Positions 2,695-64,000 of a stretch of 64,000 bases of DNA are shown here, piece after piece. A program made the translations under genes and the position numbers. Within the stretch, counting starts at the first letter, position 1. Every line of letters begins with the position of its first letter. Below the pieces are notes generated by a model. The model was not told the DNA's origin. It did no database searches and worked only from the letters and a program-made list of their open reading frames with translations. Source of the DNA: Cyclobacteriaceae bacterium (GTDB lineage Bacteria; Bacteroidota; Bacteroidia; Cytophagales; Cyclobacteriaceae); the NCBI GenBank assembly GCA_016786495.1, contig JAEUUJ010000005.1:17685-81684 (forward strand), given 5' to 3'.

Positions 2695-3245
2695 AGATCA
2701 AGCTTGAAATTTATTGGTAATACAAAATCGGACTTAACAGGAATACCACGCAGTTTCCCAGGGATCCACTTTGGAGAGGACCTGACAACCCTGATAGCTT
2801 CTTTGTTCAGGGATTCATAGCGGCCCTTTATAACTCGGATCGCAGAAATTTTGCCCTGAGCATCTACTTCAAATTTTACAAAAACACGGTCTTGCATTCC
2901 TGCTTGTCTGGCCTCAGGAGGATACTTTATATTTTTCTGAAGAAACCTCATCATTCCCTTAATCTCGCCCGGGAATACCGCTTGCTCGACTATCTCGTCA
3001 TATTTTATCAATTCATCCTTATAGGTCGATTCTCCCCGTAGAAATTGTCCCTTTTCATACCACTCCCTCGATAACACAGAATCCCCGGCGTTTATATACC
3101 AAACGGAATCGCGATAACCGCCAACAACCTTTCCCTTTTCAAATAATCCGGTATCAAAAAGATCTCCATCGTAAAACCCAAACCCATCCTTTACTAGCTC
3201 ATGTCCGCCAGCCCAATAACTGACGATTTTGAAAGAGTCGGTCAA
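2691..3245 (-). CDS. TonB C-terminal domain protein (probable 3' half of a split MORN-TonB gene)
   Basis: Residues about 95-184 form a TonB C-terminal domain (FLQKNIKYPPEARQAGMQDR, then VFVKFEVDAQGKISAIRVI and KGIPVK-like end). The first 90 residues look like MORN-type repeats (GFGFYDGDLFDTGLFEKGK). There is no signal peptide and no ATG; the only start is TTG at 3245, overlapping the stop of the upstream gene as TTGA. Proteins of this architecture in the phylum are normally one secreted polypeptide, so this is probably the second half of a gene split by a frameshift near 3245. Separate translation by coupling from the overlap is the alternative. Confidence 0.7.
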   Translation of the reverse strand: MTDSFKIVSYWAGGHELVKDGFGFYDGDLFDTGLFEKGKVVGGYRDSVWYINAGDSVLSREWYEKGQFLRGESTYKDELIKYDEIVEQAVFPGEIKGMMRFLQKNIKYPPEARQAGMQDRVFVKFEVDAQGKISAIRVIKGRYESLNKEAIRVVRSSPKWIPGKLRGIPVKSDFVLPINFKLDL

Positions 3246-3658
3246 AGAATTGTCTCCCGATAGAAATACTGAAGGGTTTGCTTGACCGTTCCGCTTTCAG
3301 TCCAATGAATGGCGTAACCGGTTTTCTGGCCCTTTTTATAAAAACCTTTTTCCTTAAGTCGTCCGTTCGGATGATAAACACTATATGGTCCTTCTGCATA
3401 GCCTTCGCGATAGAAGCGTCTGGAGCGAAGTGAACTTGTGCTTGTATAAAAAGTCTTGACTGTGTCCACATAAACTGTATCAATCCACTTGATTGTTTCC
3501 CCTCGTTGCATCAAAACTTTCTTTCCTGTTTCATAGTAGTGGCTGGTGCTGGCCTCGGTCGGCCTACCGTCTCTTGTAAAGTACTTTTTTACCGTCATTT
3601 GCCCGTTAGCAACCACGGATAGTAGCGACAGAACGATCAAGCCAACAACCTTCATCAT
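3242..3658 (-). CDS. Secreted MORN-repeat protein (probable 5' half of a split MORN-TonB gene)
   Basis: The 138-residue product starts MMKVVGLIVLSLLSVVANGQ, a clean signal peptide, followed by MORN-like repeats (GPYSVYHPNGRLKEKGFYKK, KTGYAIHWTESGTVKQTLQY). It stops at TGA 3242-3244 inside a repeat, and the next open frame carries on the repeat pattern before a TonB C-terminal domain. An extra T in the TTT run at 3244-3246 (minus strand) would fuse the two. It overlaps pepP upstream by ATGA at 3655-3658, so it is in the pepP operon. The likely intact role is an envelope protein of unknown partner. Confidence 0.7.
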   Translation of the reverse strand: MMKVVGLIVLSLLSVVANGQMTVKKYFTRDGRPTEASTSHYYETGKKVLMQRGETIKWIDTVYVDTVKTFYTSTSSLRSRRFYREGYAEGPYSVYHPNGRLKEKGFYKKGQKTGYAIHWTESGTVKQTLQYFYRETIL

Positions 3659-4953
3659 TTCGAGTTCATTAAGTCTTCAATTTCTTCCGCTTCAACCGGG
3701 ATGTTTTTCATTAAGTCGCGCACACCATTCTTTTCAATCACAACATTGTTTTCCAGTCGCACGCCCAAACCCTCTTCTTTGATATAAATGCCCGGCTCAA
3801 CCGTCCACACCATACCCGCCTGCATTTTGCTGTACATATTACCGGTATCATGAACGTCCAGCCCCAGGTGATGGCCCGTTCCATGCATAAAATACTTCAT
3901 GAACAAGGGTTTGGCTGGATTCTGATTTTTCACGTCCGTTTTATCAATCAGCTTAAGCTTGATCAGTTCTGCTTCAGTGATTTTCTGTACTTCTTTATGA
4001 TAGTCGTAGTACAACACCCCGGGCTTCAGCAATTTTATCGCTGCACGTTTAATCCGCAGCACAGCGTTGTACACATCCTTCTGGCGTTTGGTGAACGTGC
4101 CATTCACCGGAATTGTGCGCGTCATGTCGGCATTGTAATTTCCGTATTCAGCGCCTACGTCCAGTAACAAAACGTCTCCCGCCTTACACACCTTGTTATT
4201 TTCCACGTAATGAAGAACGCATGAGTTCGCTCCGCTGGCAATAATCGGCTCGTAGGCAAAACCACGCGAGCCGTTTCTTAAAAATTCGTGAATGAACTCA
4301 GCTTCAATCTCGTATTCCTTCACTCCGGGGTTCACAAACTTTAAAACTCTCCTGAATGCGTTGTTCGTGATATCACACGCCACCTGCATCTGCTCAATCT
4401 CCTCCTTCGATTTCACCGCCCGCAACTTCGACAAGATGGGCGCAACACGTTCGTATTTATGCAACGGATACTTCTCTTTACACCATTGAATAAAACGTGA
4501 GTCACGGGTTTCCACAGCAACCTCCGCCCGGTAATGCTCATTCGTATTGAGATAAATAAACTCCGCCCCCCCCATCGTCAGCGCTGTGTTCAGCACACGG
4601 TGAAAATCGGTTGTCCAAAGAATCGTTTCAATGCCACTCAAGGCACGCGCTTCGTCCCGGGTGAGTTTATGTCCCTCCCAGGTGGCAATCAGCTCACTTG
4701 TTTCGCGAAGGAATAACACCTCTCTGAATTTCTTCTCGGGATGATCGGGAAACAAAAGAAGAATCGTTTCCTCCTGATCTACACCGGTCAGGTAAAACAA
4801 ATCGCTATTCTGCCGGAAGCGCATCGTACCATCGGCATTGGTAGGCATGATGTCGTTCGAATTAAACACGGCCACCGAACCTGATTTCAGTTCGGCTGCA
4901 AGCCGTTTCCGGTTGTTCACAAAAAGTGACTTGTTGATTTGCTTATAGCGCAT
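3655..4953 (-). CDS. pepP: Xaa-Pro aminopeptidase (aminopeptidase P)
   Basis: Removes N-terminal residues that precede proline. The creatinase-like N-terminal domain covers about residues 1-165; the C-terminal pita-bread domain holds all five dinuclear metal ligands: the two Asp in LLLDVGAEYGNYNADMTRTI, the His in MHGTGHHLGLDVHD, and the Glu residues in VEPGIY and VRLENNVVI. I choose ATG 4953 (MRYKQINKSLF, 432 aa), not the in-frame TTG at 4971, because the family starts with MRY. It leads a four-gene operon in which every junction overlaps by 4 bases. Confidence 0.93.
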   Translation of the reverse strand: MRYKQINKSLFVNNRKRLAAELKSGSVAVFNSNDIMPTNADGTMRFRQNSDLFYLTGVDQEETILLLFPDHPEKKFREVLFLRETSELIATWEGHKLTRDEARALSGIETILWTTDFHRVLNTALTMGGAEFIYLNTNEHYRAEVAVETRDSRFIQWCKEKYPLHKYERVAPILSKLRAVKSKEEIEQMQVACDITNNAFRRVLKFVNPGVKEYEIEAEFIHEFLRNGSRGFAYEPIIASGANSCVLHYVENNKVCKAGDVLLLDVGAEYGNYNADMTRTIPVNGTFTKRQKDVYNAVLRIKRAAIKLLKPGVLYYDYHKEVQKITEAELIKLKLIDKTDVKNQNPAKPLFMKYFMHGTGHHLGLDVHDTGNMYSKMQAGMVWTVEPGIYIKEEGLGVRLENNVVIEKNGVRDLMKNIPVEAEEIEDLMNSK

Positions 4954-4968
4954 GAAGTTGATTTTGCT

Positions 4969-4976
4969 CAAAAATA
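4969..4976 (-). promoter_or_regulatory. Candidate pepP -7 box TATTTTTG inside the upstream terminator's T-tract
   Basis: On the minus strand TATTTTTG matches TAnnTTTG and ends 16 bases before the pepP ATG, leaving a very short leader. The same bases are the T-run of the terminator behind the DUF4199 gene, so terminator and promoter share sequence. No exact TTTG is seen at -33. Confidence 0.4.
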
Positions 4977-5008
4977 AAAAACCTGCTACGGTTTATGCGC
5001 AACAGGTT
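4971..5008 (-). terminator. Rho-independent terminator after the DUF4199 gene
   Basis: On the minus strand AACCTG pairs with CAGGTT around a 17-base loop, and a T-rich run follows (TTTTTTATTTTT). It lies 25 bases past the DUF4199 stop. Confidence 0.55.
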
Positions 5009-5032
5009 TATGTATTTTACCGGAGGAGAATC

Positions 5033-5491
5033 CTACGTTGTTTCGGTTGGTTCGTCTGTTTGCAGATAGTTGATCAGCACGAACGTCACCAGCAGGCCTG
5101 AAAACAATCCTTCCAGCGCCACGATGAATGACACAATATAGGGATTCAGGAATCGGCCCATGGGTTCATTCTGCTGAAGCCAGACCATGAAGTCAGAATC
5201 AATGTGAACATAGATAAACAGAAATATGGCAAAGAGCACTGAGCCGATCGCGCCCGTGACCACGCCTACTACCAGCGCGCGGAAGTAATTAATGTGCTTT
5301 CCATGGGTCTCTTTGAACTTTCGCAACGCGAGATAAATACCCGCCACGAGAATAAAGATGTTGAGCATTCTCAGTTCAACGATGTGGAAAAACCCGGTAA
5401 ACTTCATGAGCAGAAAGAAGGCTGTTACACCAATGCCGATTCGGATACCGTAATCTTCGGGAATTCTCTTTGGGTCGTTGAAAATTATCAT
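5033..5491 (-). CDS. DUF4199-like four-helix membrane protein
   Basis: A 152-residue integral membrane protein with four predicted helices: roughly residues 20-38, 43-57 (MLNIFILVAGIYLALRKF), 70-95 (VVGVVTGAIGSVLFAIFLFI) and 118-140 (VSFIVALEGLFSGLLVTFVL). The start MIIFNDPKRIPEDYGIRIGI and the helix 2-3 loop KETHGKHINYFRALVVG resemble DUF4199 proteins, two more of which lie at 23394 and 23936. Function is unknown for the family. It is a single-gene transcript ending in the terminator at 4971. Confidence 0.65.
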   Translation of the reverse strand: MIIFNDPKRIPEDYGIRIGIGVTAFFLLMKFTGFFHIVELRMLNIFILVAGIYLALRKFKETHGKHINYFRALVVGVVTGAIGSVLFAIFLFIYVHIDSDFMVWLQQNEPMGRFLNPYIVSFIVALEGLFSGLLVTFVLINYLQTDEPTETT

Positions 5492-5615
5492 GGTTCAAGG
5501 GTTTGGTTTCTTAAATTTTACAATTTCCCCACATAATTTCAATCGTTTGAAAGGTATATTTTTCCTAATTTGTCAGGATATCCCCTAAAAACGCGTTAAA
5601 CCAAACTCCACACGT

Positions 5616-6623
5616 ATGCTGAAGAAAATTCTAATCGGCCTCGCTGTACTGATCGTAGCCTTGCTGCTGATCGGTTTTTTGCTTCCGGGAAAAATGGAAG
5701 TATCGAAGACCACGATGGTAAACGCTTCCGCGGAAGCCGTTTTTGAAGAATTGAACGACCTCCGAAACTGGCAGGAATGGCAGTACTGGAATACACTCGA
5801 CAAACCAGGCGAATCAACGATTACGTATGGCGAAAAAAGTGCAGGCACCGGAGCCAGCTATACGTGGGATGGTAAAAATACCGGCAAAGGAAAAATCACC
5901 ATCACCGAGAGCATTCCCAACAAATCGGTTGCCAGCGACATCGAGTTTACCGGCAGCGGCTCAGCCAAAGGACTTTACACCGTTGAACCGCAAGGCGACA
6001 GCACGAAAACCACATTGAACTTTTCGTTCGACAATGGAATGAATCCCATTGGCCGCTGGATCAGCGTGTTCATGAAAGGTGAAATTGAACGAGCCTTTGA
6101 CTACGGCCTTCAAAAAATAAAAGAACGGGCCGAAGCAAAACCTAAGTTCACAGTCGACATTACCGAAGTTACCACACCTGTCGTTTATTATGTCGGAATC
6201 GAATCGAAAGGCGTAATCGCTACCAGTAATGAGGTTAATGAACTCATGACCAAAACCTATGGTCAAATCGCTACCGATCTGAACAAAGCCAAGGTACCTA
6301 CAACCGGTGCGCCATTTTGCCTGATCACCAAGTGGGACGATGCCACAAAACAAATGGACATGATTTGCGCATTCCCGGTGGATGAAAAAGCGAAGGTTCC
6401 ATCCAAATACAAGGTTCAACAAATACCAGCCGGTAACGCCGTGAAAGCAATTCACCGCGGTGACTACCGAGCCATGGAGAAAACTCACATTCAAATCAAT
6501 CAGTATATCGGCATGAAACAGCTCTCCATAAACGGAGCGCCGTGGGAAAGTTATCTCACCGATCCGATGATTGAAAAAGATACCACTTCATGGGTGACGG
6601 AGATTTACTATCCCGTCCAGTAA
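5616..6623 (+). CDS. SRPBCC-domain protein fused to a GyrI-like effector-binding domain
   Basis: Residues 1-24 are a single hydrophobic anchor (LIGLAVLIVALLLIGFLLPG). Residues about 30-165 form a START/SRPBCC fold (TTMVNASAEAVFEELNDLRN, WQEWQYWNTLD). Residues about 180-335 resemble the GyrI-like or AraC effector-binding domain (VTTPVVYYVGIESKG, AIHRGDYRAMEKTHIQINQY, ending VTEIYYPVQ). Both halves are small-molecule pockets, so a membrane-anchored ligand-binding protein is likely; the ligand is unknown and no DNA-binding domain is present. It is a single gene followed by a strong terminator. Confidence 0.82.
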   Translation: MLKKILIGLAVLIVALLLIGFLLPGKMEVSKTTMVNASAEAVFEELNDLRNWQEWQYWNTLDKPGESTITYGEKSAGTGASYTWDGKNTGKGKITITESIPNKSVASDIEFTGSGSAKGLYTVEPQGDSTKTTLNFSFDNGMNPIGRWISVFMKGEIERAFDYGLQKIKERAEAKPKFTVDITEVTTPVVYYVGIESKGVIATSNEVNELMTKTYGQIATDLNKAKVPTTGAPFCLITKWDDATKQMDMICAFPVDEKAKVPSKYKVQQIPAGNAVKAIHRGDYRAMEKTHIQINQYIGMKQLSINGAPWESYLTDPMIEKDTTSWVTEIYYPVQ

Positions 6624-6648
6624 ATTTGTTCTTCATCATTTCTCAATG

Positions 6649-6693
6649 AATTCCGGGCTTGCGGTTTAAAAATTCCGGCCCGGAATTTTTTTT
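6649..6693 (+). terminator. Rho-independent terminator after the SRPBCC-GyrI gene
   Basis: AATTCCGGGC (6649-6658) pairs with GCCCGGAATT (6678-6687), followed by eight T. The T-run abuts the stop codon of the convergent gene at 6692. Confidence 0.75.
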
Positions 6694-7660
6694 AGTCATC
6701 CGCTTCCGGCCTCACGTTAAATCGCTGCGCCTTCCAATCGTCAAGGCTCTTCTTTCGCTGTGCCAATTCCGCTTCTGTGGGGACATAGTCAATCAAGGCT
6801 TTTAAATCCGGCTGACCGGCATCCACCCAGGCCGTGTACCAGAAGTCGCCAATCATTTTTATGGCATCGCGCATGCGCTGCTCAACCATTCCGTTCAACG
6901 CTTTGTGATAGGCTTTCGAAAATTCAACCGAATAGACTTTAATCGTTTGCTTGCCTTTTGTTTCAAACGAAAACTTCTTCTCACCGAATTTTTTGGTTAG
7001 TCGCTTTTCGAGTAACAACACCGAATCAAGATGAAGGTGAGAACCTTCAATAGCTTTCCAGGCTGCCAGCTGCGGGTTGGTGATGTACGCTGCGCGACCC
7101 GTAAAAAAGTCGTAGTTGCCTGCGAATAATTCAGGTAATCGTGATTCCCAGAAACCATGAATACCTTCCTGACCGGTCAATTGACCGTTATAATTTTCGG
7201 TGGTATGAAGCGGAACATGGGCGTCTGCGATGTAGTGCCCTAACTCGGCAGAATGCAATAGAATCTTCGCGGGATCGCGCAGCATAAATGCATCCCGCAA
7301 CCGAAAATACATCGTGTTGATGTGCCACGGCACAATTCCATAGGCCTTCAGGGTATCTTCGGTGTATCGCGTCACCGCGTCTTTCCAGTATCGCGGCATC
7401 TTGTACAGGGCACTGTCGCCATAATGATCCACATCCAAATAATGCCGGGCAGCTTCATCGGCTACGGTGTACCGCCTGCGGTCGGGATTTACAGCAGCCT
7501 CGCTGATATACCGGATGTTCTTTTTGTAGAAGCCGATCATTTCCGGGGGCAGCGTAAAAACCGCCAAACGATTGATTTGCTGGTGGCCAAAGAAGCCCCA
7601 ACCGCTCGACAAAACACCTGTAAAAACCAGCAAAACAATATAAAAATGACGTTTTTGCAT
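6692..7660 (-). CDS. Secreted zinc-dependent S1/P1 nuclease or phospholipase C-like protein
   Basis: After the signal peptide (MQKRHFYIVLLVFTGVLSSG) the mature chain would begin WGFFGHQQINRLA. An N-terminal Trp followed closely by His is the hallmark of the S1/P1 nuclease and zinc phospholipase C superfamily, where the Trp amine and the His bind zinc. Further ligands are apparent in ARHYLDVDHYGD, HSAELGHYIADAHVPLHTTE and the HGFWESRLPE helix. I take ATG 7660 (322 aa); the longer in-frame start would overlap rpsT and lacks signal-peptide character. Nuclease and lipase cannot be separated from sequence alone. Confidence 0.8.
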   Translation of the reverse strand: MQKRHFYIVLLVFTGVLSSGWGFFGHQQINRLAVFTLPPEMIGFYKKNIRYISEAAVNPDRRRYTVADEAARHYLDVDHYGDSALYKMPRYWKDAVTRYTEDTLKAYGIVPWHINTMYFRLRDAFMLRDPAKILLHSAELGHYIADAHVPLHTTENYNGQLTGQEGIHGFWESRLPELFAGNYDFFTGRAAYITNPQLAAWKAIEGSHLHLDSVLLLEKRLTKKFGEKKFSFETKGKQTIKVYSVEFSKAYHKALNGMVEQRMRDAIKMIGDFWYTAWVDAGQPDLKALIDYVPTEAELAQRKKSLDDWKAQRFNVRPEADD

Positions 7661-7720
7661 CCTGAGAATATAGGACTCTAAAAATCTCAAACGCAGAATC
7701 CAAAATCTGAAATCTTTCGC

Positions 7721-7728
7721 TACCTTTG
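7721..7728 (+). promoter_or_regulatory. rpsT promoter -7 box TACCTTTG
   Basis: TACCTTTG is an exact match to the Bacteroidota -7 consensus TAnnTTTG, 22 bases before the rpsT ATG, which implies a leader of about 15 bases. No exact TTTG was found near -33. Confidence 0.65.
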
Positions 7729-7750
7729 CAGTCCTTTTTATCAAGAAACC

Positions 7751-8005
7751 ATGGCAAATCACAAGTCAGCAGAAAAGAAAATCCGTTCAAGCGCAGCCAA
7801 GCGTGACAAGAACCGCTACCAGCACAAAACAACCCGTACCGCGATCAAGAATTTGAAAGCCGTAACCGGTAAGTCAGAAGCAGAAGGTCAGTTGAAAACT
7901 GTTTCCGCTCAAATCGACAAGCTGGCAAAGAAGGGTGTGATCCACTGGAAAAAAGCAGCAAACCAGAAATCAAAGCTCGCTAAAGCTGTAAACAAGCTGA
8001 AGTAA
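7751..8005 (+). CDS. rpsT: 30S ribosomal protein S20
   Basis: An 84-residue, very basic, all-helical protein starting MANHKSAEKKIRSSAAKRDK, the standard S20 N-terminus. It binds 16S rRNA in the body of the small subunit. Length matches the family. It has its own -7 box at 7721 and a strong terminator at 8037, so it is a single-gene transcript as in many bacteria. Confidence 0.97.
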   Translation: MANHKSAEKKIRSSAAKRDKNRYQHKTTRTAIKNLKAVTGKSEAEGQLKTVSAQIDKLAKKGVIHWKKAANQKSKLAKAVNKLK

Positions 8006-8036
8006 GCTTTCATCGCTTTCTATAAAGTATTCAAGG

Positions 8037-8068
8037 CCCGGAGTTTTAAAACACTCCGGGTCTTTTAT
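8037..8068 (+). terminator. Rho-independent terminator after rpsT
   Basis: CCCGGAGT (8037-8044) pairs perfectly with ACTCCGGG (8053-8060) around a loop containing TTTAAAA, followed by TCTTTTATTTTT. Confidence 0.8.
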
Positions 8069-8077
8069 TTTTATACG

Positions 8078-8776
8078 ATGAACAGCAAACGCGACTTTCT
8101 CAACATTAAAGATTGGGCAGCAGAAGACAGGCCGCGTGAAAAGTTAACACTCAAAGGGAAAGCCGCACTTTCCGATGCAGAACTGATAGCCATATTGCTG
8201 GGCACAGGTACGGCCCGGCTTAGTGCCGTTGATCTCGCCAAGAATATTCTGCTGTCTGTAAACAACGACTTGAATGAACTGGCCCGACTGTCGGTCAAGG
8301 ACCTGATGAAGATAAAAGGTATCGGTGAAGCTAAGGCGATCACGGTTATCAGTGCGCTGGAACTCGGGCGAAGAAGAAAAGATTTTCACGCGGAAGAACG
8401 GCCGCGCATTATGGGATCGGCCGATGTGTATGATCTTTTGAAAGCCGATCTGTCCGATATTCCGCATGAAGCATTCTGGATAATCTTGCTCAACCGCGCT
8501 AATCGCGTAATCAAAAAGCACCAGGTGAGTCAGGGAGGCGTTGCCGGAACGGTGGCCGACCCAAAAATTATCTTTAAAGCGGCTGTGGATGAACTGGCAA
8601 GCGGGATTATTCTGGCCCATAACCACCCCTCCGGGAACCTTACCGCCAGCCAGGCCGATATTGATCTGACAAAAAAATTGAAAGAGTCGGGTAAATTGCT
8701 CGACATTCAGGTACTGGACCACGTGATCATTGCGGGCAAAACCTATTTCAGCTTTGCGGATGAGGGTCTGTTATAA
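8078..8776 (+). CDS. radC: RadC family JAB/MPN protein
   Basis: The 232-residue protein has an N-terminal helix-hairpin-helix part (residues about 10-95, VKDLMKIKGIGEAKAITVIS) and a JAB1/MPN metalloprotease-like domain (about 105-232). The JAMM zinc motif is intact: HNHPSGNLTASQAD, with a downstream Asp and the upstream Glu in AVDELASGI. The family was first linked to DNA repair, but its biochemical role is unsettled. It may share transcripts with the DUF1684 gene 3 bases downstream. Confidence 0.93.
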   Translation: MNSKRDFLNIKDWAAEDRPREKLTLKGKAALSDAELIAILLGTGTARLSAVDLAKNILLSVNNDLNELARLSVKDLMKIKGIGEAKAITVISALELGRRRKDFHAEERPRIMGSADVYDLLKADLSDIPHEAFWIILLNRANRVIKKHQVSQGGVAGTVADPKIIFKAAVDELASGIILAHNHPSGNLTASQADIDLTKKLKESGKLLDIQVLDHVIIAGKTYFSFADEGLL

Positions 8777-8779
8777 ATT

Positions 8780-9394
8780 ATGAAACCGAAAAACATCATA
8801 CTGATTATCATTGTGGCTGCCGTGGTAGCCGGCTTTTACTATTCCTTTACGGGATCGGATACAAGCGAAGCGTACGTAGCACGGATTGAACAAGTGCGAA
8901 CTGAAAAAGATAACAGCTTTCGCTCGGCCGATGATTCACCCTTTGGCGACAGCATTGAATTTACAGGCCTTCACTATTTTCCGATTGATGCACGTTACCG
9001 GGTCAACGCCAGGCTTACCGAGATCAATCCAAAAAAGCCGGTCGTGCTGCCCACAAGCGATGGTCGGGAAAAAAGTTATCTGGAATATGCTTACGCAGAG
9101 TTCACCCTTGACGGTGTACAAAACAAACTGTTGATTCTCGAGATCATGGACATGGGCCCGTATCGCGGCACGTTGTTTCTCGCGTTCGCGGATAAGACCA
9201 GCGCCAATGAAACGTACGGGGCCGGGCGGTACCTTGATGTGAAGAAAGTTCCGGGCGCAACCTCGATCACACTCGACTTTAACGAAGCCTACAATCCGTA
9301 TTGCGCGTACAACGATACCTACTCCTGCCCTTTCCCGCCGAAAGAAAACGTCCTCGCGGTTGAAATTAAAGCCGGAGAAAAAACCTATCATTGA
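8780..9394 (+). CDS. DUF1684 domain protein
   Basis: A 204-residue exported or membrane-anchored protein: an N-terminal hydrophobic segment (NIILIIIVAAVVAGFYYSF) followed by a DUF1684 domain. Family blocks include FTGLHYFPIDARYRVNARL, the TSDGREKSYLEYAYAEF stretch, YGAGRYLDV and the C-terminal DFNEAYNPYCAYNDTYSCPF with FPPKEN. The family has no assigned activity. It follows radC by 3 bases and its stop overlaps the region of the next start, so the three genes are probably one transcript. Confidence 0.85.
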   Translation: MKPKNIILIIIVAAVVAGFYYSFTGSDTSEAYVARIEQVRTEKDNSFRSADDSPFGDSIEFTGLHYFPIDARYRVNARLTEINPKKPVVLPTSDGREKSYLEYAYAEFTLDGVQNKLLILEIMDMGPYRGTLFLAFADKTSANETYGAGRYLDVKKVPGATSITLDFNEAYNPYCAYNDTYSCPFPPKENVLAVEIKAGEKTYH

Positions 9395-56335: not shown

Positions 56336-58141
56336 CTATCTAACGAGAATGAATGACCATGAAGCAGTGCCGTCTTTTGCACCAGAGATATCACAAGCTA
56401 CATACAGATACTCTTTTGTTGCATTTTTAGCGTACGCAATAACTTCATATTGTACTGAAGTCGCGCCACCATTAGCGGCATTTGCTGTGTTCGTGTTCTC
56501 ACCACCATAGTAAGCTTTGTAGAAGCCTATGAACGCTTTAGCATCCGCTGCGCCATCGGTAACTACGATTTTCGCACGGTCTCCGCCGGAAGCTGCAGTG
56601 AAGGTGTAGGTGTGATTAGCAAACGTTCTGAATTTCTTACCATCGTTGGTAGAAGTAGCCAACTGAGCGTCTGTATAACAGCCGTTCGGATCGATACCTG
56701 CGAAGTAACCGTCATCTCTAACGTCTCCTTTTGTATCGTAGCTGTAAACGCCGCCTGCGCTGAACTTAAATTCATCGTTTGCGAGACACTGCCAGCCGTT
56801 GGTTAACAGGTCAACCTTAGGAACTACATACCACTCATAGCTACCCATGGCCGGTCCAACGAACAGTGACAATTCGTCAGCACGAACCTTCCAGGCTGCG
56901 CCCTGCAGTAATGCATCGGTCAGAGCCGGAGTAGATGCGTTCGCCACAAACAACTTTCTCACCGTATTTGCACCGCTGGCATTGGTTGCCGTCAGTGTCA
57001 CGTTGTACATACCATCGTTGGTATAGGTATGTGTAGGCGCAGCAGCAGTTGACGTACCACCATCTCCGAAATCCCATGCGTAGCTAACAGCTCCCTCTGT
57101 ATCGTTGGTCAATGTTAACTGGTTTCCTGCCATAACACCCGAGAATGCAACGGTTGGCTTGTTTCCTGGAATTGGTGGCTCATCTCCTGGATTGTCATAG
57201 TGAACAAAGGTGAACATCCAGTAAGCCGTCGGAACAGCATCTGCAGGCACGTTCTTATAATTCACTCTAACAATTAGTGTATCCACGGTACCATCGTATA
57301 ATTTTTCGATATCATATGTTAGTGAGGCCTGAGGTGCAGTCACCTCTCCATTCGAGCCTACTTTTTCTATACCCATATAAGCACCGAGGCCGTCAATTGT
57401 TAACTTGTTTGGTGTTCCGGGAGTAACCGAGAACGTTCCGTTGAAATCGCCCCAAACCGCAAGGCTGGCACCTGTCTCAAAATCTTTCATGTTATTTGGA
57501 TCAGTCGTGTCGAAGCACTCATTTTCAATCGGGAAGCGACCTTTTGTACCGTGGCCTTCACCCCACATAGCGCCATTTAGATTTCTTTCGAAAGTCAATC
57601 CCGCACGGGTGAAGGTATATTCATGGTTCAGCATACACGCGCGGGCAGCAATCTCATCATTATCGCGGCCCATGCCCCACCACTGGCCGTCGATTGTCGT
57701 GCCGTCCTTAAGCGGACCAACCAACAATGGATATCTGCCTGTGCTGGCGTCTCGTATCAGCTTCCAGGTTTTGGACTCTGTTCCAGCCAACGCATCAAGA
57801 ATTGCGTTCGGATTTTCGATCACAACTTGCTGCTGGAAGGTTGCTGTACCACCCGAACCGGTAGCAGTCAAAACAACCGTATACGTTCCATCTTCTGCAT
57901 AGGTATGCGAAGGATCCTCCTCAGAGGAAGTTGCAGTCGCATCACCGAAATTCCACGTTACGGACGAGAAGTTCTTAGAGAAGTTGGTAAAATGAATCGT
58001 CTTGTAGTTCGCCTCATCCGCTTCATAATTAAAACTTGCGATTACCTTGCCTGAATCCTCGTCATCCTTACAGGAGATGACTTGCGTGGCCAAAATCGCG
58101 ATGGCCGCAAACCCCAGGAGTTGATTAAGTAGTTTTTTCAT
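56336..58141 (-). CDS. PKD-domain surface glycan-binding lipoprotein
   Basis: A 601-residue lipoprotein (signal MKKLLNQLLGFAAIAILATQ, lipobox VISC). Two PKD domains are visible: about residues 25-110 (SSVTWNFGDATATSSEEDPS) and about 320-405 (SYAWDFGDGGTSTAAAPTHT). Two related modules follow each PKD domain and could bind glycan: both have the layout of a WxxY-like sheet ending in PNGCYTD or ENECFDT blocks. It is the first gene of the SusCD/GH30 operon, so a surface glycan-binding role is likely. ATG 58141 chosen. Confidence 0.82.
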   Translation of the reverse strand: MKKLLNQLLGFAAIAILATQVISCKDDEDSGKVIASFNYEADEANYKTIHFTNFSKNFSSVTWNFGDATATSSEEDPSHTYAEDGTYTVVLTATGSGGTATFQQQVVIENPNAILDALAGTESKTWKLIRDASTGRYPLLVGPLKDGTTIDGQWWGMGRDNDEIAARACMLNHEYTFTRAGLTFERNLNGAMWGEGHGTKGRFPIENECFDTTDPNNMKDFETGASLAVWGDFNGTFSVTPGTPNKLTIDGLGAYMGIEKVGSNGEVTAPQASLTYDIEKLYDGTVDTLIVRVNYKNVPADAVPTAYWMFTFVHYDNPGDEPPIPGNKPTVAFSGVMAGNQLTLTNDTEGAVSYAWDFGDGGTSTAAAPTHTYTNDGMYNVTLTATNASGANTVRKLFVANASTPALTDALLQGAAWKVRADELSLFVGPAMGSYEWYVVPKVDLLTNGWQCLANDEFKFSAGGVYSYDTKGDVRDDGYFAGIDPNGCYTDAQLATSTNDGKKFRTFANHTYTFTAASGGDRAKIVVTDGAADAKAFIGFYKAYYGGENTNTANAANGGATSVQYEVIAYAKNATKEYLYVACDISGAKDGTASWSFILVR

Positions 58142-58480
58142 AGTTAGGTTACTGTTAATTGTTCTACACAATTACAAGTCTAACCAACTTTCCAATAATA
58201 GCAAAGTAACTGACTGATAATGAATGGTATGCATCGCGTAATACGCTTCAATCGCATGCAAAAAAACCGCAAATTTGGCTCAAAATCCAAATGTTTGTGC
58301 TGTTTAGCGCAATCGATTGATACGCACGGGCGGGCGGAAACGATTTCGGGCTTTTTCACTAACTACCTGATTATCAGAAGTGTTTTCTGAAAAGCCTCCA
58401 CGAAATAATTTGAAAAAAAAATCGCGATTCTGTCAAACTCACTAATAATCAAGCGGATAAAGTCGCTTTAAAACGAGAAT
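58142..58480. other. Intergenic region upstream of the PUL (339 bases)
   Basis: No gene is apparent. It carries a near -7 box on the minus strand, TTACTTTG (58209-58202), and an inverted repeat ATTTGG (58273-58278)/CCAAAT (58287-58292) about 130 bases before the PKD gene start, a candidate operator. It also holds poly-A tracts and a short G/C-rich stretch near 58328. No terminator after the receptor gene is evident. Confidence 0.4.
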
Positions 58481-60421
58481 TTACCCCTCTATAATGATCG
58501 ATTTCCACCCCGTTTGGAAAAAATTGGGGTTTCTTCTCCGTTTTTCGTTCAAAAGCGCCTTGATACGGGAGCTGTAATGCCAGCAGGTGCTCTGCCGGAT
58601 GCTGAGAATTTCGGATAGCTTATAGGAAGAAATGCTCCCCCTTGAATTGTATACCAGGAAGATCATGTAAAGTGCTTTGCCAAGCGGCAAACGCGTATTC
58701 TGTAACAGGGTGTACGCAGTAACCGACTCGTCATAACCGCATTTGGTACATCTGCGACTATGCAGACTCCTTCCGGCCCCGTATAGCTCGTTGCGGCACT
58801 TTCGGCACGCATATCCGTCAGCCCACTTTACATCGGCAAGAAATTTCATCCAGCTTTCCTCGGTTGGATGTGTGGCGCTGAATTCTTCATAGTCAACCTC
58901 TTTCGAAAGAACCCGCGCCTCCTTCACCTCCGCTACATCGTGTTGCAGTTTCACATTGTCGCGCTCAAGCAGGATATTGATTTCTGCAATCTCACGAGCC
59001 TGGGTTTCCAGTTGCTTGTTGGCAGCTTCAAGCTGTGCGTTCTGCTCCTCAATGTGGGCAGACTTCTGGATCAACTCGGCCGTCTTTATCAATACTTGTT
59101 CTTCCAGTGTTTTGTTGAGGTTATCCTTTAACTGCTGATTCTCATGCAGCTGCTCGATCATGTTTTCACTGGCACGTGTCTTTTCCAAACTCAGTACGCG
59201 GATCTTGTCACTGATCGCAAACGACAACAAGAGCATCTCTGCCACAAAGCTGAAGCCGAGTGTGTAATGCGACAACTCACCGAACGGTTTCCACTCGATT
59301 CCAAAGTATTGCACCACTTTATAAAAGATCCCCAGTGCCACAAAGGTGTAAGCAGCTACGAGAAAGCGCGCGGGTGAATAACGCTGGGCAAAATAGCTTC
59401 GAAAACTGGCGTAATAGATTACCGCAAACGGCACAATTTCAATAAACCGGTACCGGAACAGTTCGGGATTAATCACCAGGCTCATCAACAGAAAAACGGT
59501 TCGAAGCGCGAACGCGTACACGAATAGACGATAGACCTTTCGGTCGTTCCTTCGCAAATTCAGCAGTGAACCGGAGAATACAAGCGCAGTAGTGGTTGCC
59601 AGGTACAGGAAAATTCCCGGGGCATAGTAATTCAAACCCGGTGAACCCGGCCAGAGATATTGAAATGCAATTCCATCGGCACTCATCTCGTATAATCCAA
59701 CACACAGAATGTAGAGGAAATAATAGAGGTAATGACTTTCCCGCACGGCAATGAACATCAGCAGGTTATAAAAACCGAACACCAGGATCATGCCGTAGAA
59801 GATCCCAAAGAAAAAATACTCATCGAGGGCATACTGAAATAACCAGTCGCGCGAACGAAGAACAACTAATATATCTGCTTTTTGACTCGATAACACCCGG
59901 ATGTAGTACACTACCTCGCGATCTTGCTGGGGCGTCAGATTAACAATAAAGTTTTTGTGTTTCGTGTCACGCGAATCAAACACAGCCTCATCGCCCAAAA
60001 GCACACGTGAATAACGGATTGAATCAATCGGCTCATAAAACTCCAGGTGGTCGATTGTTTGATCAAAAAATTCAACCACCCAATCCTTTTTGGTCCTGGG
60101 ATCATGCTTGATTTTGATCCGGTACCAATAAGCTGATTCGCGGTTGGGATTCGTGGGATTAAAGGCAGTGTTTTGCTGAAAGCGAGAATGATATTCAGGT
60201 GAAGTAATCTCACCAATACTCAGCGTCCGGGTAGCATCTTCCAGGTACTCAATCTCCTGAAAAGAAAAGATGTGTTGATCAATGCTGTCTTCAATAACCA
60301 CCGACTGCTGGGCAACTACCGGCGAAACGAATAGTAAGCACAACAACCCAACGTGCATCATGCGCCTGATCGCATGATCGAACCAACCGGGCTGAAAAGC
60401 AGGTAACCTTTTGACTGTCAC
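58481..60421 (-). CDS. 7TM-DISM receptor fused to an IS1595-like zinc ribbon and HTH
   Basis: A 646-residue protein (from GTG 60421; ATG 60361 would give 626). Signal peptide HVGLLCLLFVSPVVA; a periplasmic 7TMR-DISMED2-like beta domain at about 40-180 (YWYRIKIKHDPRTKKDWVVE); seven helices at about 205-405; a coiled coil at about 410-510; then a zinc ribbon (Cys539/542 and Cys558/561, YACRKCRNEL and RCTKCGYDESVT) and a helical domain NTRLPLGKALYMIFLVYNSR with SSYKLSEILSIRQSTCWHY. This tail matches the N-terminal zinc ribbon/HTH region of IS1595-type transposases; no DDE core follows. It is likely a membrane-bound DNA-binding sensor next to the glycan locus. Confidence 0.85.
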   Translation of the reverse strand: MTVKRLPAFQPGWFDHAIRRMMHVGLLCLLFVSPVVAQQSVVIEDSIDQHIFSFQEIEYLEDATRTLSIGEITSPEYHSRFQQNTAFNPTNPNRESAYWYRIKIKHDPRTKKDWVVEFFDQTIDHLEFYEPIDSIRYSRVLLGDEAVFDSRDTKHKNFIVNLTPQQDREVVYYIRVLSSQKADILVVLRSRDWLFQYALDEYFFFGIFYGMILVFGFYNLLMFIAVRESHYLYYFLYILCVGLYEMSADGIAFQYLWPGSPGLNYYAPGIFLYLATTTALVFSGSLLNLRRNDRKVYRLFVYAFALRTVFLLMSLVINPELFRYRFIEIVPFAVIYYASFRSYFAQRYSPARFLVAAYTFVALGIFYKVVQYFGIEWKPFGELSHYTLGFSFVAEMLLLSFAISDKIRVLSLEKTRASENMIEQLHENQQLKDNLNKTLEEQVLIKTAELIQKSAHIEEQNAQLEAANKQLETQAREIAEINILLERDNVKLQHDVAEVKEARVLSKEVDYEEFSATHPTEESWMKFLADVKWADGYACRKCRNELYGAGRSLHSRRCTKCGYDESVTAYTLLQNTRLPLGKALYMIFLVYNSRGSISSYKLSEILSIRQSTCWHYSSRIKALLNEKRRRNPNFFQTGWKSIIIEG

Positions 60422-60447
60422 GATAGTTATTGAATCAACAAATTATT

Positions 60448-60480
60448 CAAAAATAACACAATTGACGGCCTAAAAACAAA
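60448..60480 (-). promoter_or_regulatory. Promoter for the 7TM receptor gene
   Basis: On the minus strand, TTTG (60480-60477) at -33 and TATTTTTG (60455-60448) at -7 are 21 bases apart, a good fit to the Bacteroidota consensus TTTG-N19/21-TAnnTTTG. Initiation near 60441 would leave 20 bases before GTG 60421 or 80 before ATG 60361. Confidence 0.6.
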
Positions 60481-60503
60481 AAGGTCTGCTTTCGCAGACC
60501 TTC
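60474..60503 (-). terminator. Rho-independent terminator of the SET/ATP-grasp operon
   Basis: On the minus strand AGGTCTGC and GCAGACCT form a perfect 8-bp stem with a GAAA tetraloop (60483-60502), followed by TTTTGTTTTT. It lies about 20 bases past the last gene and overlaps the next gene's -33 box. Confidence 0.8.
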
Positions 60504-60523
60504 ACGCATGTGTATAAGCCGTA

Positions 60524-62011
60524 CTATTTAGCCTTTGACTTTACCGGTCCTGAATAAATTGGGATTTTTATTCTCCGGCCGTTGGCTTTCGTAATGGAGT
60601 TCTCTTTTTTACCAAACACCACTCCGCGGCAATTGTCTGAGCCGCATTGGCAGTTGAAAGGTTCAATATTATGATCGAGAAATAAGGCGTAATCGAGGGT
60701 TAATTCTTCACCTTCTGAAATATTGCGAACGGCCACTACGTCCAGTCCATTGTACGCAGTATTCGCATCACAACTATGATTCTGAGGCGACCAGTTTACA
60801 GGGTTTTCATCCCAAAGAATATAAACTTCTTTACTGATTGGATACGCATAATGCTTGAAGTCGTTCTTCTGCCGGTCATTCCAGTTGGCATCTACAAACT
60901 TCTTCGAGATAATACGCTGCGACTTTCCTTCGCCTGTAAAAATAATCTCGCCTTTCTTCAGGTTTCGCGCGGCAAAAATTCCGTAACCGGAAACCGGACT
61001 GCCCTTCAGAATATATTTTCTTTGCTTTGCCTTATGGCGCGCAATACCCTCGTTGATAATATTTTTTAAGAATCCGCTTTTTCCGGCAGGGTCAAAATTC
61101 AGCACAAAATCTGCCGAGCCTTGGTAGTCATCTTCATAAAACGCAGAGCATGTAAAATTGACTTCCAGAAAGTAGATGTCGTTGTTTTCATCCATCCGGA
61201 AATCCATTCGCGCATAGCCTACGCCGCCAAAAGCTGTAAAGACTGCCTCTGCCGCTTTGCGTAATGCTTTTTCTGTTTTAGTATCCTTACACGGAACGTT
61301 GCAATCGGGATGCAACTCCGAAGTTTTCAATGAGTAGGTTTTGAATGCCCTTCCCTTGGGGAACAGGTATTCAACTGGTTTATAACTGATGCACGACTTG
61401 CCATCTGCATTTGCCGATACCAACACGGTAAATTCCCGGCCGGCAATGTATTGTTCAACCAAAAGCTCCGGATACTCGGCCAGCGTGGCATTGATCTTGG
61501 TCTTTAGTTCCTCCTCAGAATTAACAAGTGACTTTTCGTCCACGCCGAGGCTGTCGCCTGCTTTAGCGGGCTTAACAAACATCGGGAAACTCAACTTGGT
61601 CAACACTTCCTTCACATCCTTAATCGATGTTACTTCAACCGCGGCAGGTGTTTTTACTCCCGCACAGTACGCCACATACTTCATCAACGGCTTTGGCGGA
61701 TCGTACAAAACGGCGTTTGGGCCGGTGTACGGCAGGTTAAGTAAATCAAGTGTATTGATTACATCAATCGAAGGCACCTCCCATTCCAGGTAGCCTTCGC
61801 AAAGGTTTACAAAAATGTCGTAGCCCTTCGTGCTGAGCTCTTTCAGTTGTTTGTAAGTTGTGAGCTTATTCAGGGACACATGATCCACCTGGTGCTGGGG
61901 CAACAGGCTTGACAAATTACGTTTAGGATCGTAGTTCTTGTAATCAACGTTTGTCGTGGAATAGTCAGGCTGAAGTACGCAAACTTTCATACGTTTTTGC
62001 AGATTGATCAT
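60524..62011 (-). CDS. ATP-grasp ligase fused to a C-terminal SET domain
   Basis: A 495-residue two-domain protein. Residues about 8-325 are a D-Ala-D-Ala-ligase-like ATP-grasp fold: MKVCVLQPDYS start, MFVKPAKAGDSLGV (145-157), LLVEQYIAGREFTVLV (183-198) and the metal block ARMDFRMDENNDIYFLEVN (267-285). Residues about 335-465 are a SET methyltransferase domain: GYGIFAARNLKKGE, PQNHSCDANTAYNG (NHSC 411-414), ELTLDY (Tyr441) and the post-SET FNCQCGSDNC. ATG 62011 overlaps the upstream stop as ATGA; ATG 61990 is an alternative. Substrate unknown; it should ligate an amine to a carboxylate and methylate an amine. Confidence 0.9.
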   Translation of the reverse strand: MINLQKRMKVCVLQPDYSTTNVDYKNYDPKRNLSSLLPQHQVDHVSLNKLTTYKQLKELSTKGYDIFVNLCEGYLEWEVPSIDVINTLDLLNLPYTGPNAVLYDPPKPLMKYVAYCAGVKTPAAVEVTSIKDVKEVLTKLSFPMFVKPAKAGDSLGVDEKSLVNSEEELKTKINATLAEYPELLVEQYIAGREFTVLVSANADGKSCISYKPVEYLFPKGRAFKTYSLKTSELHPDCNVPCKDTKTEKALRKAAEAVFTAFGGVGYARMDFRMDENNDIYFLEVNFTCSAFYEDDYQGSADFVLNFDPAGKSGFLKNIINEGIARHKAKQRKYILKGSPVSGYGIFAARNLKKGEIIFTGEGKSQRIISKKFVDANWNDRQKNDFKHYAYPISKEVYILWDENPVNWSPQNHSCDANTAYNGLDVVAVRNISEGEELTLDYALFLDHNIEPFNCQCGSDNCRGVVFGKKENSITKANGRRIKIPIYSGPVKSKAK

Positions 62012-63177
62012 TGATGTTTGGACTGATACCGCGCAACAGCATCTTCCAGAATTTCTACGATTAAGTGCGTAAATGATTTTCCATCAAAGCGCAGAATTGC
62101 GCCAATAGAAGTGTAATCTTCGTCTTCGCTTAAGCCGCACTGGGCATTTACCTCCAGCACATAAAACTTGCCGGTATTCTTATCCATGCGGATGTCAAGG
62201 CGGCCGTAGCCCATACCCCCTACCGACCGGAATGCCTTGATGCTGATATCTTTCAGCGTCTCGATAAGTTCCTCGTCAGCTTTCTTGTAGTTGTAGAGAA
62301 AACCTTCTGCCTCTATGGGTTTCTCGTTATCGTACGTTTCCCAAAGGCGGTCGAACGAAAGGAATTGCTCCTTTTCCGGCAACGAACTGTGAAACACTCG
62401 TTCAATCGGTGTGTAGCAGTGCAGTGACTTTGGTTTGGTGGATGAACCTACAACCAGTGTGGTGAACTCGCGTCCGTTTACAAACTCCTCCACGAAAATG
62501 CCGCCCGTATCAAGCTTCCAGCCACGATAGCCATTGCGCATTTCGCCAACGATCGCTTCAAACTCCCCCTGCGTGCTGACTACGTTCTTCACCGTCAACC
62601 CCATGCTTCCTGCTGACACGGCAGGCTTAACGATCAGCGTTTTGCCAATCTCTTTAAAGATCGTGTTATAATCTTCTTCGCCCGATTCAATCACCTTCCA
62701 TTTGGCAGTAGGCACCTTGCGCAGGTCGAAAGCCTGCTTCATCGGAATTTTTGAGGTGGTTATTTCATAAAAGAAATCGTCAGCACCGGTATAAATGAGG
62801 TTGTGCTTTTCCAGCTCGGCAATAACCGATAAGCCCGGAACCGCGTTCGACTCATCCCCATCACACAGGTTAATAACGATCGTTTTCTTGGTAGTCGGAT
62901 AGTTCTTGATCCGCAGGATTGATTTCTCGATATCCTTAATGGTCACATTCTGCCATTTCCATTCACAGCCCACCTCTCCGAACACCTTCGTGTATTCGGC
63001 TATGCTCTGTGTATAGTCGTAGTAGAATTTGAGATTCGGATCATCCGTTTCCAGAAAGGGGGCAAGAATCCATACGAGGTATTGATCCTTGTTTTCGAGA
63101 AAGCCCGTTTTTTTTCTGCGGCCTGAGCGCTGAACCGGAGCTACGGCCACGTTCAGATCAGCCTTAACTTTATTCAT
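62008..63177 (-). CDS. ATP-grasp ligase, D-Ala-D-Ala-ligase-like
   Basis: A 389-residue cytosolic ligase. The N-terminal lobe has the INLCDGDESNAVPGLSVIAE block; the ATP-grasp core shows LIVKPAVSAGSMGLTVKN (182-198), FVEEFVNGREFTTLVV (228-243) and the metal-binding GRLDIRMDKNTGKFYVLEVN with NAQCGLSEDED. It differs from housekeeping Ddl in length and in having a basic N-terminal extension (KADLNV, GRRKKTG). It lies 2 bases after the SET gene and overlaps the ATP-grasp-SET gene by ATGA. The two ligases look like diverged paralogues, which suggests two ligation steps on one product. Confidence 0.9.
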   Translation of the reverse strand: MNKVKADLNVAVAPVQRSGRRKKTGFLENKDQYLVWILAPFLETDDPNLKFYYDYTQSIAEYTKVFGEVGCEWKWQNVTIKDIEKSILRIKNYPTTKKTIVINLCDGDESNAVPGLSVIAELEKHNLIYTGADDFFYEITTSKIPMKQAFDLRKVPTAKWKVIESGEEDYNTIFKEIGKTLIVKPAVSAGSMGLTVKNVVSTQGEFEAIVGEMRNGYRGWKLDTGGIFVEEFVNGREFTTLVVGSSTKPKSLHCYTPIERVFHSSLPEKEQFLSFDRLWETYDNEKPIEAEGFLYNYKKADEELIETLKDISIKAFRSVGGMGYGRLDIRMDKNTGKFYVLEVNAQCGLSEDEDYTSIGAILRFDGKSFTHLIVEILEDAVARYQSKHQ

Positions 63178-63179
63178 AA

Positions 63180-63716
63180 TCAGCTTTTTGAAGCCAGTTT
63201 TTGTTGTATAAAGTCGGTAAACCGGTACTTTCTGAGTTGAGTATCCGTCAGGTATTTAGCACCCTTTACGGTACCAATGCAGTTCTTCGCACCGCAGTTG
63301 CATTCGAAAGGCTGGTCCATGTCCCACTCGGCTGAAGGATAAAAGAAACGCATCTCTTCTCCTTCGTGGATTGGCTTAAGCGCAACCAACTGAAGGGTAG
63401 CTGTGTCGAAAAAGCAATTCGGATCGCAGCCATGGTTAATGCACTCGAGGTATTCAGGGAAGAGTTCAACGTGTTCGGTTTCGCTTAACTGAACGGTTAA
63501 GTAGCTGGGCTCTGAATACATCGCGCGCCAGCCAAACTCTGAGATGATTTCACCGGCAGCGAAGTTCTTGCGTGAGAAAAGCGAACGATTATTAGCCAGG
63601 ATGTCCGTTCGTACTTCGGCAATTTCGGTGGGAACTACAGCAGTAATCACATTAGAATGATTGGATTCTGCTTTTTTCTGGGCAGGGGCGTTGCCCTTAC
63701 CTGTTTTAAAGCTCAT
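63180..63716 (-). CDS. SET-domain protein-lysine methyltransferase-like protein
   Basis: A 178-residue SAM-dependent methyltransferase. After about 35 disordered, Lys-rich residues, the SET domain reads NNRSLFSRKNFAAGEIISEF, CINHGCDPNCFF (NHGCDPN 94-100; the usual Ser is Gly), MRFFYPSAEWDMDQPFECN with the catalytic-type Tyr126, and a post-SET zinc site from Cys139, Cys141 and Cys146. Bacterial SET proteins methylate lysine side chains or related amines. First gene of the three-gene operon; the second SET domain is fused to the downstream ligase. Confidence 0.9.
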   Translation of the reverse strand: MSFKTGKGNAPAQKKAESNHSNVITAVVPTEIAEVRTDILANNRSLFSRKNFAAGEIISEFGWRAMYSEPSYLTVQLSETEHVELFPEYLECINHGCDPNCFFDTATLQLVALKPIHEGEEMRFFYPSAEWDMDQPFECNCGAKNCIGTVKGAKYLTDTQLRKYRFTDFIQQKLASKS

Positions 63717-64000
63717 GGGTTGTAGTGGTTGAGTGAACTTTGATCAACTAGTAAGCAAACTTTTATAGACATACTATCCGCTTTAAGATAAACTTTCAGT
63801 TGAACGTAGTGGTCTATACTATAAATGTACGTGTATAGATTGTGTTTATCCAAATTATGAAGCGTGAATTATCAAATGATCAATAACTTACGTTAATTAA
63901 TCACATATAAACATGATAAACTATTAACGCATGTTCTTCAAGTGATACTTGACATGCAACATTAACGCACCAACGAACGAAGTGATGCATAACTTCAACA
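63717..64000. other. Upstream region of the SET/ATP-grasp operon
   Basis: The 284 bases to the window end hold no clear gene. TCTATAC (63813-63819) and GTATAGA (63833-63839) are exact reverse complements, 13 bases apart, about 100 bases before the SET start codon, a candidate operator. CAAGTGATACTTG near 63939 is a second small palindrome. No exact TAnnTTTG box was found on the minus strand. The region is clearly AT-rich. Confidence 0.4.

Follow-up and report, generated by a model that had tools for sequence, protein, structure and literature searches.

A conserved operon of two ATP-grasp ligases and two SET domains in Bacteroidota, a candidate pathway to a small methylated peptide-like compound

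A stretch of 64,000 nucleotides from a Cyclobacteriaceae bacterium (contig JAEUUJ010000005.1; G000:C50:17685-81684, hereafter the window) carries on its minus strand three genes, here called A, B and C, which encode a stand-alone SET-domain protein, an ATP-grasp ligase and an ATP-grasp-SET fusion, respectively. A-B-C is one conserved, selected gene unit. The original prediction, made from this DNA alone, had proposed a survey of co-occurrence, and both gene linkage and a sample of 395 genomes bear out that the three genes are kept together. With moderate confidence, we regard the unit as dedicated to the biosynthesis of a small methylated peptide-like compound. Its parts are as follows:

63180..63716, minus strand: A, stand-alone BurB-like SET protein of 178 amino acids (open reading frame; Pfam SET; BurB profile and fold match)
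62008..63177, minus strand: B, ATP-grasp ligase of 389 amino acids, sister family of the ATP-grasp half of C (open reading frame; Pfam Dala_Dala_lig_C; clade adjoining C in the tree)
60524..62011, minus strand: C, ATP-grasp-SET fusion of 495 amino acids (open reading frame; Pfam matches to both domains; model; full-length relatives)
61022..62011, minus strand: ATP-grasp half of C, residues about 1-330 (Pfam match 131-285; Foldseek matches to Ddl)
60587..61015, minus strand: SET half of C, residues about 333-475, with NHxC and CxC-x4-C motifs (Pfam SET 342-441; invariant residues in 82/82 rows)
60480..60503, minus strand: terminator-like hairpin followed by a U-run, 20 bases past the stop of C (consensus scan and folding energy)

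The three overlapping or 2-base-spaced genes, with two ATP-grasp and two SET domains, had been called earlier; the open reading frames, confirmed at the same coordinates, and the Pfam matches agree. A and B are separated by 2 bases and B and C overlap by 4 bases, gene starts being assigned mechanically. The terminator that was said to close the unit was likewise recovered 3' of C as a stable hairpin with a U-run: a stretch of 54 bases has a folding energy of -18.8 kcal/mol (z -4.2), and none of 200 shuffles was equally stable. The consensus scan gave no excess of terminators in this region (4 found against 4.2 expected). Since the contig stops at window base 64000, only 284 bases 5' of A are readable in the window genome, and no match to the Bacteroidota-type promoter motif was found in them.

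A profile built from an alignment of C and run against 84,980 species genomes returned 308 relatives, of which the best-scoring 80 were kept. These 80 loci are top scorers and not a random sample; three (L056, L059 and L060) are contigs of one metagenome-assembled genome, and B genes cut by contig ends were counted as present. In 78 of the 80, B adjoins C in the same orientation, with a gap of at most 100 bases in 74 of these 78. The two loci without an adjoining B are one whose contig starts at C (L059) and one whose genome carries B and A together on another contig (L087). A adjoins B in 54 loci, and in one more (L051; 4261-5931, plus strand) the two form a natural fusion of 556 amino acids, SET first and then ATP-grasp, which brings the count to 55/80. 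Of the 25 loci in which A does not adjoin B-C, 11 lie in genomes that were searched whole, and A was found elsewhere in 8 of these. Among the carriers are two with species names, Terrimonas pollutisoli (L080) and Terrimonas ginsenosidimutans (L093).

A second sample, independent of these genes, consisted of 395 genomes drawn evenly across the phylum, and was taken to be identical in the scans for C, B, A and the ATP-binding cassette (ABC) gene described below, which agree in size, scope and handles. Presence required more than 430 bits for C, 500 for B, 100 for A and 450 for the ABC gene, cut-offs that were set after viewing the gaps in the scores and that discarded weaker matches in 11, 69, 2 and 16 genomes, respectively. 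Full-length C was found in 17 genomes, B in 6 and A in 16. B is present in 6/6 genomes with a close-type C and in 0/389 others (Fisher p 2e-13; 3e-11 at genus level), and A in 15 of the 17 C genomes and in 1/378 others (G312, 103 bits; p 4e-24; 4e-10 at genus level). The genus-level test was made because 9 of the 17 C genomes belong to one genus. Retention does not depend on adjacency in every case: in G345 A is distant from B-C, yet all three are retained, and G265 keeps A-B, C and the ABC gene, each on a separate contig. In the family of G345, C occurs in 73/244 genomes and 37/101 genera.

The proteins of the window are 95-97% identical to copies in two genomes of the same genus. Against these copies, A has a ratio of nonsynonymous to synonymous substitution rates (dN/dS) of 0.035-0.037 and B one of 0.020; for C, synonymous sites are saturated and dN is 0.03. 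Among viral contigs there was no relative. Among plasmids, 500 records match, none over 80% of C, and the best 15 listed are 26-32% identical across the ATP-grasp half.

The active sites are strictly conserved. In the 82 C, 78 B and 55 A rows compared, C keeps K147, E186, R268, D270, E283 and N285 of its ATP-grasp half and N411, H412, C414, Y441, C454, C456 and C461 of its SET half without variation. The counterparts of these catalytic residues in the ATP-grasp domain of B and in the SET domain of A are likewise conserved, save for two partial B rows that are gapped (K184, E230), R277 replaced by G in one B and N100 by S in one A. The motifs of all four domains, earlier judged intact in the window, are thus near-invariant in the rows compared. 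Neither of the outcomes that would have refuted the original prediction, genes not kept together or catalytic residues lost in most homologues, is seen. A cysteine three residues after the metal-binding asparagine is fixed in every B and C row; in Ddl, proline follows this asparagine. D352 and E353 of B and D301 of C are also invariant. By our assumed assignment of the site, further fixed residues of B and C lie around the second-substrate site. One ligation partner might, as a guess, be basic and lysine-like; an acidic second-substrate pocket was considered as a sign of this, and was demoted to a guess, residues 293-295 of C being variable.

Both ligases match Pfam Dala_Dala_lig_C (PF07478, cut-off 24 bits), C with 85.4 bits (4.9e-24) and B with 55.9 bits (5.2e-15). 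The predicted model of C has a mean predicted local distance difference test (pLDDT) score of 84.4, and the 50 nearest solved structures listed by Foldseek all belong to the D-Ala-D-Ala ligases and kindred D-Ala ligases, with 16-23% identity. Neither protein reaches the 245.65-bit cut-off of the NCBIfam Ddl family TIGR01205 (C 94.2, B 69.9). An unrooted tree of 61 ATP-grasp domains places B and C in a single clade (100/100) that excludes the Ddl rows and the tandem ATP-grasps discussed below; one of the seven rows labelled Ddl (L010) grouped with rows labelled 'other'. This joint clade marks B and C as old duplicates of each other. Judged from these scores and the tree, neither is a D-Ala-D-Ala ligase, so that the label 'D-Ala-D-Ala-ligase-like' of the original prediction holds for the fold and misleads as to the function. 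A role in the cell wall, in which the ligases would make an altered D-Ala-type dipeptide for peptidoglycan, draws on this fold and Pfam family. It is nevertheless extremely improbable: the scores fall well under the Ddl cut-offs (94 of 245.65 bits), the clade is separate, the window genome holds another Ddl-like gene (G000:C60), and we know of no role for SET enzymes in peptidoglycan precursors.

The SET domains are matched by Pfam at 4.4e-8 in A, where only the C-terminal half of the model is covered, and at 2.8e-11 in C; both proteins possess the SET domain, NHxC, the catalytic tyrosine and the zinc cysteines. A profile of A built from 38 sequences finds BurB first (68.8 bits, 3.8e-18), the next structure scoring 36.9 bits (2.4e-8). 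The AlphaFold model of A, based on the same number of sequences, has a mean pLDDT of 90.6 and is low only in the first 20 residues; with it, three BurB chains rank 1-3 in Foldseek (E 1.4e-8), followed by MLL1 (1.4e-6). By profile and by predicted fold, then, A is BurB-like, with BurB as its nearest solved structure. BurB is a SET-domain methyltransferase that S-methylates free methionine in dimethylsulfoniopropionate synthesis (PDB 9l4t, 9l4v; PMC12542666, in the part available). A may methylate something other than methionine. Elsewhere, at L191 (G256:C65; 6465-8318, minus strand), a protein of 617 amino acids joins SET, S-adenosylmethionine decarboxylase and spermidine synthase domains, and is, by this composition, another SET domain tied to small amines. 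It is followed (4989-6440, minus strand) by a 483-residue protein with an N-terminal SET domain and otherwise no Pfam or NCBIfam match. A third SET gene of the window genome (163-residue frame) lies at G000:C25:11159-11473.

In the pathway that we propose, A would methylate a free amino acid or amine using S-adenosylmethionine. Using ATP, B and the ATP-grasp half of C would each activate a carboxylate to the acyl phosphate and couple this to an amine, so that a di- or tripeptide-like product results. The fused SET half of C could methylate an amine of substrate or product beside the ligation site. An ABC-exporter-type membrane protein, present in many lineages, would probably export the product. 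Of the two readings first put forward for this operon, a small ligated and methylated molecule appears better supported than the tailing and methylation of a protein, because A is nearest to BurB, exporter genes are present and no conserved precursor peptide was seen.

The export step is suggested by the gene that follows C, from which it appears that the product is probably moved out of the cell. An ABC membrane-domain gene lies 3' of C on the same strand in 32 of the 80 loci. In the 395 genomes, the operon-type ABC gene (>450 bits) is found in three, all with A, B and C; 16 further genomes have distant relatives, none above 137 bits. Green sulfur bacteria have a different arrangement. In one genus, assigned by the FMO protein in 5/5 genomes tested, A is followed by C, a full ABC exporter and a third SET, in this order. 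The sample includes 9 C genomes of this genus, of which all carry A (one cut) and 8 the third SET; the loci in which the full exporter was read are three (L139, L141 and L142). B was not found in any of the nine. SET genes of Chlorobium are mentioned, with no function given, in the available parts of PMC3980110 and PMC10117894. The N-methyl-bacillithiol pathway was considered for the green sulfur SET genes and rejected: its methyltransferase, NmbA, is a class I enzyme, and the term 'SET domain' does not occur in the available text of PMC12719100.

Several observations weigh against a unit of this kind with the role proposed for it. A is absent from 3 of the 11 whole genomes searched among the loci lacking A beside B-C, and from 2 of the 17 C genomes of the sample (G264, G393). 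B is missing from the green sulfur genomes with C and was not found in G018 (94% complete) or G010 (81% complete), so that C can function without it. In the window's own genus, C occurs in just 4 of 17 genomes, 3 of which have the full set. The exporter gene was found neither in the window genome nor in four other A-B-C genomes (G008, G011, G345, G147), nor in three further C genomes (G010, G264, G393), and the two ABC membrane proteins of the Bacteroidia form that were scanned match Pfam ABC_membrane_3 with no ATPase domain. Finally, SET enzymes are known chiefly for their action on proteins, by lysine methylation, and the SET half of C scores alike against MLL1 (48.6 bits) and BurB (47.1 bits).

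It is mainly this last likeness that keeps protein modification under consideration as an alternative, in which B and C would add amino acids to a protein, in the manner of RimK or TTL, and the SET domains would methylate its lysines. Protein lysine is the canonical substrate of SET enzymes, and human TTLL12, a SET/ATP-grasp fusion, belongs to a protein-tailing family (PMC3520985, in the part available). We consider this explanation unlikely. The ATP-grasps are of Ddl type: neither B nor C matches TTL (PF03133) in Pfam up to E 0.1, neither matches RimK there, and in NCBIfam B alone has a weak RimK-family score (20 of 143 bits). Moreover, A is closest to BurB, ABC genes follow C, and no candidate target protein recurs beside the operon beyond housekeeping-like neighbours.

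A ribosomally synthesized and post-translationally modified peptide (RiPP) would be another outcome, the ATP-grasps and SETs acting on a ribosomal precursor. Graspetides are made by ATP-grasp ligases, and some of the loci include an ABC membrane gene. However, when 1869 open reading frames of 20-99 amino acids lying no more than 1 kb from the operon were grouped by similarity, the 12 largest groups listed hold at most 11 of 82 loci each and sit at neighbouring-gene sites. No conserved small frame lies inside the operon, the search covering the operon and its surroundings. A RiPP-type pathway is thus very unlikely.

The next-best ATP-grasp relatives of the C model, at 107-116 bits, include tandem pairs. 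In the four tandem loci read (L193, L194, L195 and L198), two Ddl-like ATP-grasps are followed, in 4/4, by a GNAT acetyltransferase and a lysine-2,3-aminomutase-like radical SAM enzyme, the GNAT of L195 (5669-6172) being recognised by eye. We take this set to resemble the genes for acetyl-beta-lysine; it may constitute a separate pathway. One member of each tandem pair and seven single genes score 97-115 bits, the other tandem member 77-97, and the Ddl and other rows 47-78. The tandem ATP-grasps were considered as the true sister of B+C; the scores lean that way and the unrooted tree gives no decision. This resemblance raises the possibility that A-B-C makes a compatible solute, a methyl analogue of the acetylated-lysine solutes that would be retained in the cell. 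Such a role is quite unlikely, given that the aminomutase family is lacking in 13 of the 14 C genomes tested and that ABC-exporter genes in many loci suggest outward transport. The idea that beta-lysine is involved is weakened by the same count, only one of the 14 having the family; neither of two genus mates without C has it.

Apart from the ABC gene, the recurrent neighbours of C resemble syntenic housekeeping genes, presumably a helicase, mnmG-like, SSB and nadD-like genes. Single loci show other companions. A DNA N6/N4-methylase gene separates B from C in L107 (4337-5323, plus strand). A kynureninase gene, recognised by Pfam, lies directly upstream of B-C in two loci (L144, 10032-11312; L058, 3583-4863). 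In L138 (G264; 3041-8792, minus strand) a C-type fusion is near a glutathione-synthetase-like ATP-grasp, a MATCAP-family peptidase and an N-formylglutamate amidohydrolase. A scan with Rfam for a riboswitch that might name the substrate gave no hit other than a tRNA, found in 10 of the 80 loci, and nothing in window 58000-64000. Downstream in the window, a 7TMR-DISM sensor (58481-60421, minus strand) ends in a CxxC...CxxC stretch that resembles transposase zinc ribbons by eye; its C-terminal part has no Pfam domain.

The A-B-C gene set was not found in the open-licence literature, the search not extending to subscription journals. In the same literature, human TTLL12 was the sole described SET/ATP-grasp fusion found. 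The statement of the original prediction that no such pathway had been described can therefore be kept for the operon and not for the fusion as such (PMC3520985, in the part available). The operon consists of known enzyme families in a new combination that is, as far as searched, undescribed as a system. The conserved set with its strict active sites points to a metabolite that has apparently never been named. If the SET enzymes act on small molecules, the class, so far regarded chiefly as methyltransferases of proteins and histones, gains a second biosynthetic use beside BurB. The pairing of ligase and methyltransferase occurs twice, in A and B (fused in L051) and in the two halves of C, and this physical association makes the question of the substrate directly testable. 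More tentatively, A-B-C might represent an undescribed class of pathways in Bacteroidota, green sulfur bacteria included, in which SET domains were recruited as amine methyltransferases wired to Ddl-type ligases for the production of exported N-methylated small peptides. On this view, the eukaryotic protein TTLL12 would represent a parallel to the same pairing or a remote echo of it.

Four known systems invite comparison. The Ddl and Van ligases share the ATP-grasp fold and the catalytic residues with B and C, which differ from them in forming their own clade, in scoring below the Ddl cut-offs, in having cysteine where Ddl has proline and in other fixed residues near the second-substrate site. 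The tandem ATP-grasp clusters likewise combine two adjoining, related ATP-grasps with a possible amine-capping enzyme; however, this is an acetyltransferase in place of SET, their ATP-grasps fall outside the B+C clade, and they are nameless in the libraries used. BurB, like A, is a stand-alone SET protein of similar size, and its H-x-C-x-P-N motif, tyrosine and CxC...C...GAxxL tail align with those of A, whereas identity is about 24% and the available text of PMC12542666 mentions no ATP-grasp partner. Human TTLL12, according to the available part of PMC3520985, unites SET-type and ATP-grasp-type domains in one protein, as does C, and the A-B fusion of L051 shares its SET-first order; in contrast, the ATP-grasp of TTLL12 is of TTL type, while C has the ligase first and its motifs intact.

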